51,790 nucleotides of DNA from the NCBI GenBank assembly GCA_000513055.1, contig AZYB01000005.1, forward strand, positions 1 to 51,790, written 5' to 3'. The notes beneath the pieces are model-generated. The model saw only the letters and a program-made list of their open reading frames with translations. It had not been told where the DNA came from and searched no databases. A program made the translations under genes and the position numbers. This DNA is from an alpha proteobacterium SCGC AAA288-N07 (lineage in GTDB: Bacteria; Pseudomonadota; Alphaproteobacteria; Pelagibacterales; Pelagibacteraceae). Every line of letters begins with the position of its first letter. The stretch's first letter is position 1. This document shows, piece after piece, positions 1 through 51,790 of this stretch.

Positions 1-43
1 CACTAGCCTACACTCAACTTAAGTTAAGTTATAAAGGAAATAA

Positions 44-1018
44 ATGAATACTAATTTAGATATTAAACCGGATATTAAAATTTCAGTTAATCAATACTTT
101 GGTATTGATACGGACATGTTGGTTGATGGATTTTCAAAAAAAAATGAACATGTTCCTGAAATTGATAAAGATTATAAGTTTGACAGGGATACCACACTTT
201 CTATCTTATCTGGTTTTGCATTCAACAAAAGAGTCTTAATACAAGGTTATCACGGAACAGGTAAATCTACTCATATTGAACAAGTAGCTGCAAGATTAAA
301 TTGGCCATGTATTAGAGTTAATTTAGATAGTCATATCAGTAGAATTGATTTAATTGGAAAAGACGCAATAAAAATAAAAGACAACAAGCAAGTTACTGAG
401 TTTAAAGAAGGTATGCTTCCTTGGTCAATACAAAATCCTGTTGCACTAGTCTTTGATGAATACGACGCAGGAAGACCAGATGTAATGTTTGTGATTCAAA
501 GAATTTTAGAATCTGATGGAAATTTTACATTATTAGATAAAAACAAAGTACTTAAACAAAATAAATATTTTAGACTCTTTGCAACTACTAATACTATAGG
601 GCTAGGTGATACAAGTGGTCTATATCCTGGCACTCAACAAATTAATCAAGGTCAGATGGACAGATGGAATATTGTTGCAACTTTAAATTATTTAGATTTC
701 GATAAAGAATTAGAGATTATTTTAGCAAAAAATAAGAATTTGAATACTACTAAAGGCAAAGAAAAAGTCTCGAATATGATAAAAGTAGCAAGTTTAACAA
801 GAAAGGGTTTTATTGCGGGAGATATTTCTAGTGTTATGAGCCCAAGAACTGTAATTCATTGGGCAGAAAATTCAGAAATTTTTAAAGATACAGGGTATGC
901 TTTTAGAGTAACATTTTTGAATAAATGTGACGACCTAGAAAAAACTATTATTGCTGAATACTATCAAAGATGTTTTGGTGAGGATCTTCCAGAATCTACT
1001 ATAAATATAAAAATATAA
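44..1018 (+). CDS. cobS: CobS-like AAA+/MoxR-type ATPase (cobaltochelatase small subunit family)
   Basis: Walker A GYHGTGKSTHIEQVAARL, Walker B ALVFDEYDAGRPDVMF; followed by CobT-like gene. Confidence 0.9.
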   Translation: MNTNLDIKPDIKISVNQYFGIDTDMLVDGFSKKNEHVPEIDKDYKFDRDTTLSILSGFAFNKRVLIQGYHGTGKSTHIEQVAARLNWPCIRVNLDSHISRIDLIGKDAIKIKDNKQVTEFKEGMLPWSIQNPVALVFDEYDAGRPDVMFVIQRILESDGNFTLLDKNKVLKQNKYFRLFATTNTIGLGDTSGLYPGTQQINQGQMDRWNIVATLNYLDFDKELEIILAKNKNLNTTKGKEKVSNMIKVASLTRKGFIAGDISSVMSPRTVIHWAENSEIFKDTGYAFRVTFLNKCDDLEKTIIAEYYQRCFGEDLPESTINIKI

Positions 1019-4936
<3,918 letters not shown>

Positions 4937-5065
4937 CTAAATAAAATAATCTAATTTTTTATACTTAAAATATGCTTGATAATCCTTGCCGATTTAAACT
5001 TTTTATAAAATTATTTCTTGCTTTTTAATTTATGCTTAAAAAAGTCATTTTTGACACAAAAAAGA

Positions 5066-5097
5066 GAGGGAACAAGGCATTTAGCGCTTGCTCCCTC
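5066..5097 (-). terminator. Rho-independent terminator downstream of the micropeptide array
   Basis: Minus strand GAGGGAGCAAG-(10 nt)-CTTGTTCCCTC (11 bp with one G-U) followed by TCTTTTTTG. Confidence 0.8.
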
Positions 5098-5158
5098 CAA
5101 ATGTAATATCTTTAGCTTTTAAATAAAAACAACTTAAATAATTGTAGTGATCTCTTAT

Positions 5159-5212
5159 CTACTGTTGTGACCAAACGTACCAAACTACTAATGCTACTAC
5201 TGCCCATTCCAT
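5159..5212 (-). CDS. Micropeptide A (17 aa) MEWAVVALVVWYVWSQQ
   Basis: ATG...TAG; SD AAAAGGAGAAAATT-ATG; coding sequence identical to copy B. Confidence 0.72.
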   Translation of the reverse strand: MEWAVVALVVWYVWSQQ

Positions 5213-5290
5213 AATTTTCTCCTTTTTGTTGTTACTTATTTTTTATTACTTACAAGTTTATAAAAAAATCTAATTGTAGTGATTTTTTAT

Positions 5291-5344
5291 CTACTGTTGT
5301 GACCAAACGTACCAAACTACTAATGCTACTACTGCCCATTCCAT
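5291..5344 (-). CDS. Micropeptide B (17 aa) MEWAVVALVVWYVWSQQ
   Basis: SD GGAGGAAATT-ATG; 54/54 nt identical to copy A while the flanks differ. Confidence 0.72.
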   Translation of the reverse strand: MEWAVVALVVWYVWSQQ

Positions 5345-5416
5345 AATTTCCTCCGTTTTGTTGTTACTTATTTTTTATTACTTAAAGTTTATAAAAAAAT
5401 CTAACGGTTACAATTT

Positions 5417-5479
5417 TTATTGGTTTGTCCAAAAATAGTAGACTATTCCAGCTACTATTACAATTTCCCAACCACTCAT
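5417..5479 (-). CDS. Micropeptide C (20 aa) MSGWEIVIVAGIVYYFWTNQ
   Basis: SD AAAAGGAGAAATT-ATG; same peptide architecture as A/B/D/E. Confidence 0.72.
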   Translation of the reverse strand: MSGWEIVIVAGIVYYFWTNQ

Positions 5480-5605
5480 AATTTCTCCTTTTATTATTTA
5501 TTAAACGAATCTTATCTAAAATATAGCTCAAGGTATTTTATATTAAAACTAATTACTTTGAAAACAGCTAATATTTGGCTATTTTGTCCATAAAAGACAC
5601 ATTTA

Positions 5606-5631
5606 ATGCACACCCAAGAACGGATGTGCAT
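5606..5631 (-). other. Hairpin between micropeptides D and C
   Basis: Minus strand (A)TGCACATCC-GTTCTT-GGGTGTGCA(T): about 10 bp with a G-U pair; possible terminator with a weak T tract. Confidence 0.5.
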
Positions 5632-5681
5632 CAAGAATTCTTTAAATATTTAGATACTATTTATATCAGAAAATCTATTGA

Positions 5682-5738
5682 TTACTGATTTTGAAAATAC
5701 CAAACTAAAGCACCTAATGCTAATATTGGAACCCACAT
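5682..5738 (-). CDS. Micropeptide D (18 aa) MWVPILALGALVWYFQNQ
   Basis: SD AAAGGAGAGACTT-ATG; same architecture, NQ C-terminus. Confidence 0.7.
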   Translation of the reverse strand: MWVPILALGALVWYFQNQ

Positions 5739-5830
5739 AAGTCTCTCCTTTATAAAATTTAACAAAATTAGAGCTTAACTTAAGAATTTTAACATTAAAG
5801 TCAATTGATTACTTACTGTTATATGATATT

Positions 5831-5883
5831 TGGTGCATAAAACTGCTGCCCACCACCCCTTTGGATGCTCAAAAGATACACCA
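5831..5883 (-). other. Candidate structured RNA or terminator between micropeptides E and D
   Basis: Minus strand UGGUGUAU...AUGCACCA outer 8-bp stem (one G-U) with inner CAUCC-AAAG-GGGUG hairpin. Confidence 0.4.
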
Positions 5884-5933
5884 CTCTTGCTGCTCCCTGC
5901 CAAGATTAAAGACTAAATTATGTTAGAAAATAT

Positions 5934-5990
5934 TTATTGATTTAAATAATATGCTAACCCTACTATACCAGCCAGTATAACCCATTCCAT
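5934..5990 (-). CDS. Micropeptide E (18 aa) MEWVILAGIVGLAYYLNQ
   Basis: SD AAAAGGAGTAGCAAGTC-ATG; MEW N-terminus as in A/B, NQ C-terminus. Confidence 0.7.
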   Translation of the reverse strand: MEWVILAGIVGLAYYLNQ

Positions 5991-6036
5991 GACTTGCTAC
6001 TCCTTTTAAATTTATTAAACAAAGTTCTATTTGAAA

Positions 6037-6066
6037 GATATTAAGAATTTTTTATATTAAAATCAA
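6037..6066 (-). promoter_or_regulatory. Promoter-like block upstream of micropeptide E
   Basis: Minus strand TTGATT-17 nt-TAATAT within TTGATTTTAATATAAAAAATTCTTAATATC; related blocks occur upstream of D (5779-5804), C (5526-5552), B (5381-5404) and A (5249-5273). Confidence 0.45.
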
Positions 6067-6081
6067 TAAAATTTTTTAAAA

Positions 6082-6171
6082 TGGCGGAGAGAGTGGGATT
6101 CGAACCCACGATACCTTTAACAGTATACACGCTTTCCAAGCGTGCGCCTTAAACCACTCGACCATCTCTCC
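6082..6171 (-). tRNA. tRNA-Ser (anticodon GGA)
   Basis: GGAGAGA acceptor stem, anticodon loop TTGGAAA between CACGC/GCGTG, T arm GTGGGTTCGAATCCCAC, 3' GCCA encoded. Confidence 0.93.
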
Positions 6172-49660: not shown

Positions 49661-50182
49661 ATGGAAAATATTTGCGATCATAAAAATTGTAAAAAAATTG
49701 GCAAATACAAAGCTCCAATTGAAAAAGATAATAGCAAGAAATTTAAATGGTTATGTTTAGATCATGTAAAAGAATTTAATCATGGTTGGGATTACTTTAA
49801 AGGTATGTCAGATCAAGAAGTATGTGAATTTTTAAAATCTGACATAACATGGCATAAACCAACACAAAGTTTTAGCTCACCAAATAACTTTTTTAATATA
49901 TTGTGGAAAAATACTCTTAATGAAGAAGGGGTTGTTTTTAGAAATAGACATGAAAAAAAAATTAAAACTAAGATAAATTTCTCAGATAAAGATAAGGAGG
50001 CGTTTAATATTATTGAGTTATCAGTTGGCACAAAATGGGATAAAATCCAAAACCAATTTAAAAAACTTGTCAAAAAATATCATCCTGATATGAATGCTGG
50101 AAACAAAAAATTTGAGGAAAAGCTTAAAATAATCACACTAGCCTACACTCAACTTAAGTTAAGTTATAAAGGAAATAAATGA
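49661..50182 (+). CDS. J-domain protein (alphaproteobacterial dnaJ-cobS-cobT locus type)
   Basis: C-terminal J domain AFNIIELSVGTKWDKIQNQFKKLVKKYHPDMNAGNKKFEEKLKIITLAYTQL (HPD motif). Confidence 0.88.
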   Translation: MENICDHKNCKKIGKYKAPIEKDNSKKFKWLCLDHVKEFNHGWDYFKGMSDQEVCEFLKSDITWHKPTQSFSSPNNFFNILWKNTLNEEGVVFRNRHEKKIKTKINFSDKDKEAFNIIELSVGTKWDKIQNQFKKLVKKYHPDMNAGNKKFEEKLKIITLAYTQLKLSYKGNK

Positions 50183-51153
50183 ATACTAATTTAGATATTA
50201 AACCGGATATTAAAATTTCAGTTAATCAATACTTTGGTATTGATACGGACATGTTGGTTGATGGATTTTCAAAAAAAAATGAACATGTTCCTGAAATTGA
50301 TAAAGATTATAAGTTTGACAGGGATACCACACTTTCTATCTTATCTGGTTTTGCATTCAACAAAAGAGTCTTAATACAAGGTTATCACGGAACAGGTAAA
50401 TCTACTCATATTGAACAAGTAGCTGCAAGATTAAATTGGCCATGTATTAGAGTTAATTTAGATAGTCATATCAGTAGAATTGATTTAATTGGAAAAGACG
50501 CAATAAAAATAAAAGACAACAAGCAAGTTACTGAGTTTAAAGAAGGTATGCTTCCTTGGTCAATACAAAATCCTGTTGCACTAGTCTTTGATGAATACGA
50601 CGCAGGAAGACCAGATGTAATGTTTGTGATTCAAAGAATTTTAGAATCTGATGGAAATTTTACATTATTAGATAAAAACAAAGTACTTAAACAAAATAAA
50701 TATTTTAGACTCTTTGCAACTACTAATACTATAGGGCTAGGTGATACAAGTGGTCTATATCCTGGCACTCAACAAATTAATCAAGGTCAGATGGACAGAT
50801 GGAATATTGTTGCAACTTTAAATTATTTAGATTTCGATAAAGAATTAGAGATTATTTTAGCAAAAAATAAGAATTTGAATACTACTAAAGGCAAAGAAAA
50901 AGTCTCGAATATGATAAAAGTAGCAAGTTTAACAAGAAAGGGTTTTATTGCGGGAGATATTTCTAGTGTTATGAGCCCAAGAACTGTAATTCATTGGGCA
51001 GAAAATTCAGAAATTTTTAAAGATACAGGGTATGCTTTTAGAGTAACATTTTTGAATAAATGTGACGACCTAGAAAAAACTATTATTGCTGAATACTATC
51101 AAAGATGTTTTGGTGAGGATCTTCCAGAATCTACTATAAATATAAAAATATAA
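50179..51153 (+). CDS. cobS: CobS-like ATPase, second copy due to terminal repeat
   Basis: Protein identical to 44-1018. Confidence 0.9.
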   Translation: MNTNLDIKPDIKISVNQYFGIDTDMLVDGFSKKNEHVPEIDKDYKFDRDTTLSILSGFAFNKRVLIQGYHGTGKSTHIEQVAARLNWPCIRVNLDSHISRIDLIGKDAIKIKDNKQVTEFKEGMLPWSIQNPVALVFDEYDAGRPDVMFVIQRILESDGNFTLLDKNKVLKQNKYFRLFATTNTIGLGDTSGLYPGTQQINQGQMDRWNIVATLNYLDFDKELEIILAKNKNLNTTKGKEKVSNMIKVASLTRKGFIAGDISSVMSPRTVIHWAENSEIFKDTGYAFRVTFLNKCDDLEKTIIAEYYQRCFGEDLPESTINIKI

Positions 51154-51790
51154 ATGAACAAAGAGGAATTAATAAAAGAAAAATTTAAAATTGCATTAAC
51201 CTCAACTATAAAAGTAATTTCAGAAAAAGATAAGGTTCAAATTAATTTTGAAAATAAAAATTTAAGTTCTAAGAATTTCCTTTTTTTTGACCTAGATAAC
51301 TTAAAAAGCATTCATGATTATACCAAAGTTAGAGCAGAAACTGATTCTGAAGCATTAAAATTAAGATATTCAAACAAGGAAATTTATGAAAAAAATTTAC
51401 CAAAAACTTCTACTGCAAAATCTCTATATAGTTTAACAGAAAAAATTAGATATGAAAAAATAGGTTCCAATAATCTTAAAGGTATTAAACAAAATTTTTT
51501 AAAAAATTACGAATTTAGACAAAAATACAAAAGAAAAGATCAACTAAATACTAAAGAAGATGTGAGCGCAAAGGAAGCTTTTGAATTATATTTATTAAAA
51601 CATTTCCATAACGTTAAACTTACAAAATTATCTAAAGAGATATTAAGTTTTTGGGAAAAAAAATTTGATGAAAAGCTAAATAATAAAATAGATTTTTTTA
51701 AAAAAAACATTTATAGCCAAGAAATTTTTAATTCAACTTTTTCCGAAATAATTGAAAGTATGGATATTGTAGATAACTCTGAAGAAAAAA
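51154..51790 (+). CDS. cobT: CobT-like, 5' part, truncated by window end
   Basis: Identical to 1019-1655; window ends inside the A run. Confidence 0.85.
   Translation, partial: MNKEELIKEKFKIALTSTIKVISEKDKVQINFENKNLSSKNFLFFDLDNLKSIHDYTKVRAETDSEALKLRYSNKEIYEKNLPKTSTAKSLYSLTEKIRYEKIGSNNLKGIKQNFLKNYEFRQKYKRKDQLNTKEDVSAKEAFELYLLKHFHNVKLTKLSKEILSFWEKKFDEKLNNKIDFFKKNIYSQEIFNSTFSEIIESMDIVDNSEEK

Follow-up and report, generated by a model that had tools for sequence, protein, structure and literature searches.

Organization of the tRNA-Ser/gyrB intergenic region

The window, the whole 51,790-nt stretch of DNA that was analysed, is contig C5 of a SAR11 genome (G000; 955 kb, 66% complete). Few bacterial groups in the ocean are as abundant as SAR11, whose streamlined genomes hold very little spare DNA. 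In the 1,190-bp gap between tRNA-Ser(GGA) and gyrB, five unannotated micro-ORFs of 17–20 aa were identified on the minus strand, each with an ATG start and a GGAG-type Shine-Dalgarno (SD) sequence ahead of it, all present as the initial annotation had reported (Table 1). The encoded peptides have a hydrophobic run of 12–15 residues and a GRAVY of 0.8–1.1, which indicates small hydrophobic peptides with a predicted membrane helix.

Table 1. Features of the array and its borders, in window coordinates; dN/dS values are Nei-Gojobori ratios over the window and two congeners
Feature	Position	Strand	Remarks
tRNA-Ser(GGA)	6082-6171	-	one border of the array gap
TTGATTTTAAT box upstream of A	6056..6066	-	exact motif
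Type A micro-ORF MEWVILAGIVGLAYYLNQ, 18 aa	5934..5990	-	orthologues L005 and L089; dN/dS 0.10
TTGACTTTAAT box upstream of B	5794..5804	-	B upstream region strongly conserved in congeners
Type B micro-ORF MWVPILALGALVWYFQNQ, 18 aa	5682..5738	-	orthologues L005 and L089; dN/dS 0.53
14-bp hairpin after B, terminator-like	5603..5634	-	z -3.5; stem kept in congeners, bases changed
Putative promoter region and 5′ UTR of C-D1-D2, with GATTCGTTTAAT	5495..5550	-	limits approximate
Type C micro-ORF MSGWEIVIVAGIVYYFWTNQ, 20 aa	5417..5479	-	SAR11-wide MSGWEIL family; profile A7 E 3.9e-10
132-bp tandem repeat, two copies, with D1 and D2	5139..5404	-	Tandem Repeats Finder, 96% match
Type D1 micro-ORF MEWAVVALVVWYVWSQQ, 17 aa	5291..5344	-	type D orthologues L005 and L089; dN/dS 0.105
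Type D2 micro-ORF, 17 aa, peptide same as D1 (MEWAVVALVVWYVWSQQ)	5159..5212	-	tandem duplicate
GC-rich hairpin and T run after D2, terminator-like	5058..5098	-	z -3.1; stem kept in congeners, bases changed
gyrB	2822-4891	-	other border of the array gap

The contig, which bears the chromosomal gyrB, also carries an exact 1,655-bp direct terminal repeat (window 1–1655 = 50136–51790). The contig may be a circular product or include a tandem duplication, or its ends may overlap in the assembly.

Putative control elements

Many of the units followed one order: a TTGAYTTTAAT box or a TATAAT-like element, a putative 5′ UTR, the SD sequence, the ORF and, in many, a strong hairpin. The short putative 5′ UTRs often contained GATTCG or CGAATC. 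The exact box occurred in the window at A, at B and at one site within a longer gene; it was also found before B at L005 and L089 and before two units at L254, and at these three loci its sites lay only ahead of micropeptides. C, D1 and D2 are apparently transcribed as one unit, whose upstream region was homologous to those preceding A and D in congeners (z 11–15). Rfam scans returned tRNA and tmRNA only.

Small hydrophobic ORFs in such an array recall type I toxins of the Ibs, Ldr or TisB kind, which are short hydrophobic helices, tandem-duplicated and silenced by antisense RNAs, whose derepression depolarises the membrane. The SAR11 peptides resemble Ibs in length, in their uncharged hydrophobic core and in their tandem intergenic copies; E. 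coli IbsC has 19 aa and no charge at its C-terminus, and toxicity requires no more than 15 aa, 10 of them hydrophobic (PMC8309996). However, the antisense RNA of the Ibs-Sib pairs found no counterpart in the sequence here; one encoded in trans may exist. Promoter-like sites on either strand of the window were not in excess (10, against 7.3 ± 3.0 in shuffles), and the gap from the stop codon to the converging gene is only about 30 bp in genus g5, a tight fit for a cis antisense gene. With no sign of an antisense RNA, the toxin reading is possible but not favoured. We had also considered an exposed SD sequence as an argument against toxins; this was dropped, as the SD accessibility of the units predicted by folding was mixed (0.07–1.0).

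Orthologues and duplication within the genus

Four congeners were searched, and the two with gyrB, G001 (which matches record AZYC01000026.1, SCGC AAA288-G21) and G002, carry A, B and D upstream of it in the same order as the window. Alignment of the three intergenic regions showed that C and D1 are absent from the congeners as one block, so that the C promoter region now lies directly ahead of D. In a further congener, G004, a type C peptide (MSGWEILIVVAVIYYFFNQ) occurs at another place, followed by MGADILLISMGALIVLTWIWNNA. A, C and D have homologous upstream regions (z about 6–19), which shows that these units were duplicated together with their control DNA. The relation of B to these units is more weakly indicated. 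The array at gyrB is absent from most SAR11 genomes.

Selection on the encoded peptides

The possibility that the ORFs arose by chance was examined in two ways. A peptide-type detector, written after the peptides were known and tuned on them, so that its figures are supportive only, gave five hits in the intergenic region. It gave no further hit in the window, nor any in 1.17 Mb of sequence from 79 other SAR11 gyrB loci; over 2,000 shuffles of the region it averaged 0.0015 hits, with a maximum of 1. Since the detector postdates the peptides, the independent proof comes from conservation with synonymous bias.

Such bias was strong in four independent sets, namely A, D, the g3 slot peptides described below (dN/dS 0.11, eight 16-aa members) and type C (67 peptides; 0.25 for all pairs, 0.20 when close pairs alone are compared). 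For A and D, column shuffles matched the synonymous excess with P of about 0.001 or below; for B, whose bias is weak, P was 0.14. ORF frames were kept across the three aligned intergenic regions, and frame-disrupting changes of the kind that the initial annotation had named as refuting translation were seen nowhere that the array exists. As the congener orthologues differ mainly at synonymous sites, the ORFs are almost certainly translated. Chance ORFs were ruled out by the dN/dS bias together with the detector counts in shuffles, and an origin as repeat debris was considered and rejected.

The same data bear on a reading at the RNA level, in which the ORFs would serve transcription attenuation as leader peptides or be incidental to a structured RNA. 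The ORFs are very short and contain aromatic clusters, and strong hairpins follow some of them. Selection, however, acts on the amino acids, no aromatic amino-acid gene lies downstream and no Rfam family was matched, and we regard this explanation as highly improbable. The units are followed either by a terminator and then gyrB or by NlpC/P60 and transporter genes in converging orientation; amino-acid attenuator leaders were accordingly rejected for want of biosynthetic genes downstream.

Distribution across SAR11

The type C profile recovered a family with consensus MSGWEILIVVAVLYAIVN in about 70 of 332 SAR11 genomes, with E down to 2e-12. These genomes, mostly MAGs or single-cell genomes of partial completeness, belong to genera g1, g2, g3, g5 and g13 (labels of this analysis), and mostly carry one copy each, at several unrelated loci. 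Seventy type C places were read out; removal of one with an internal stop, one poor match and the G006 variant left 67 for statistics. M-S-G-x-E-I-L and Y14 were nearly fixed among these 67 peptides, a conservation that is due in part to the search itself, whereas the synonymous bias is not. The large genus g4 gave no convincing type C match, with a very short profile by which diverged members could be missed. Relatives were found in about 80 other SAR11 genomes.

Genome G042 of genus g3, reached by profile and pattern, has five relatives: MWWAIAAVAVAYWWYTNQ behind tRNA-Ser, then MWVELAVLVALVWYFQNQ, which is a relative of type B, MLVLAGLFLALYWLNQQ and MEWVIAVAVVAYLYWTTTQ, with MIWAVVAVAVVAIWWTQH on the other strand. 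In the same genus, relatives of 16–21 aa occur between a MORN-type gene and an NlpC/P60 gene in 12 of the 15 genomes in which this slot was readable; among these relatives, MVWVAAAVVVIWYMNK (16 aa) occurs in four genomes. In genus g2 the same NlpC slot contains a converging type C peptide. At 33 of the 70 type C places, in genera g1, g5 and g13, the gene is divergent to a protein of about 49 aa with a CxxCG motif; recurrence of this neighbour across the three genera looks like an old position.

The relatives also narrowed a feature that had been read from the array. The absence of Lys, Arg and His holds only locally, in the array itself; among relatives, tails such as NK, TQ, QH or VN occur, so that the lack of Lys and His is not a family trait.

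The family was restricted to SAR11 in the collections searched. When 289 genomes of the class were scanned with a profile, the hits were the own genome and false positives within longer frames only, and sampled alphaproteobacteria outside SAR11 gave no member, with very short profiles by which diverged members could be missed. No relative was found in phages by tblastn or on viral contigs with type C patterns; the M-E-W...Q pattern gave chance matches on viral contigs, and the detector found no family member among the matches listed. A phage origin was rejected on these grounds. Their absence from the phages and viral contigs searched also speaks against type I toxins, as does conservation of the peptide sequence between genera, since type I toxins lack sequence conservation (PMC8309996). 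Taken with the control elements above, we consider a toxin role unlikely.

Members of at least 20 aa, the minimum scannable length, gave no accepted match in Pfam, NCBIfam or PHROGs. No such small ORFs are described in the accessible portions of a paper on SAR11 structured RNAs and of one on Red Sea SAR11 promoters. The family is apparently undescribed so far, although an unnamed cluster may exist in metagenomic small-ORF catalogues. The proposal that these translated membrane micropeptides form a new family was thus borne out by congener orthologues, relatives in four other genera, synonymous bias and the lack of a curated-library match; on these comparisons, a new and translated SAR11 micropeptide family is very probable.

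Selection at the amino-acid level, persistence across genera and local duplication are all established by comparison of the sequences. SAR11 keeps, duplicates and diversifies genes of 16–20 codons despite streamlining, and standard annotation misses them. In size these genes come close to the minimum for conserved bacterial genes, and they could be sought in SAR11 transcriptome, Ribo-seq and peptide data that already exist. Their orthologues and paralogues provide a ready set with which to ask how little protein a specific membrane function needs.

Possible function

The composition of the peptides suggests a family of single-helix membrane peptides of 16–20 aa, the most widespread form being the single-copy MSGWEIL-type peptide (type C). 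In the genus of the window, such units were duplicated and diverged into A, B, C and D, as the shared upstream DNA shows for A, C and D and less strongly for B. Each would form a single short helix inserted in the inner membrane. The Glu near the N-terminus and the C-terminal Lys of many relatives point to a topology that is probably N-terminus outside, C-terminus inside. The peptide would then pack laterally against a larger membrane protein and serve it as a tiny subunit with an accessory or regulatory role.

We prefer this mechanism, an accessory or regulatory single-helix subunit of an inner-membrane partner, while holding it tentatively, at somewhat less than an even chance. The conserved N-terminal motif suggests a specific contact, and the constraint is sequence-specific, beyond mere hydrophobicity. 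Most genomes have one copy, at least five genera are represented, and the divergent neighbour is conserved in g1, g5 and g13. The units have their own upstream elements, an SD sequence and often a hairpin. Against a subunit role, no partner gene was consistently linked. A fixed subunit of a housekeeping complex would not be expected to have so patchy a distribution or such variable loci, and a copy number of 1–5 with rapid divergence of the array would also suit toxins or modulators.

AcrZ, CydX and KdpF are established examples of single helices that act in association with a larger membrane complex. The SAR11 peptides would share with them one short membrane helix and an expected action by helix contact. 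They are, however, half the length of CydX (37 aa) or less, and, unlike CydX and KdpF, are encoded by stand-alone units in varying neighbourhoods, in no operon with a large partner, with a patchy distribution and several copies in some genomes. Members of at least 20 aa gave no Pfam or NCBIfam match to CydX, KdpF or AcrZ. The N-terminal helix of TatA is likewise short and has both W and an acidic residue towards its N-terminal end; among PDB sequences TatA matched the type C profile best, at an E of 3.6 that is chance level, so that the resemblance is no more than a lead. The SAR11 peptides lack the hinge and the amphipathic helix of TatA, and type C family members gave no Pfam TatA match (TatA/TatE).

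Two further roles may be considered. Peptides of the YohP kind are non-lethal modulators, helices that are induced by stress or starvation, reduce the membrane potential and damp metabolism; YohP itself has 27 aa, lies N-out/C-in and lowers the potential without killing (PMC12719787). Like YohP, the SAR11 peptides are predicted single helices from stand-alone genes, in small units of their own, but no sequence relation to it is apparent and they are a third shorter, and a role of this kind seems improbable. Alternatively, the peptides may be interchangeable helices that self-assemble into an all-peptide membrane oligomer, a pore or potential-regulating patch with no large partner, expanded in particular SAR11 lineages; this we think quite unlikely.

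Other small elements near type C loci

The CxxCG protein of about 49 aa (MIKWLYLLFCKVGIHRYEKIDINYSFGPGGSTETIKCKDCGIKKIRRKN) shares a short divergent promoter region with type C (L383, L390, L258 and 30 other loci), and had no Pfam match. In several g5 genomes (L368, L381, L385, L405, L395), a repeated hairpin-forming element, GGGGCACCTGGCAACAGAACGCCCC, lies before and/or after the type C gene, with no Rfam family reported for it. A second microprotein of 22–23 aa, MHWILLGIAIGLIFYLGDKYIF, directly follows the NlpC/P60 stop codon in 17 g2 genomes (L305, L308, L324 and others), with a dN/dS of 0.08. Additional hydrophobic micro-ORFs of 15–16 aa with SD sequences, such as MDAIFIVLILLVIANS and MSIFAVAIIIYIFAAG, were observed near g5 type C genes (L401, L417, L418, L420, L382).
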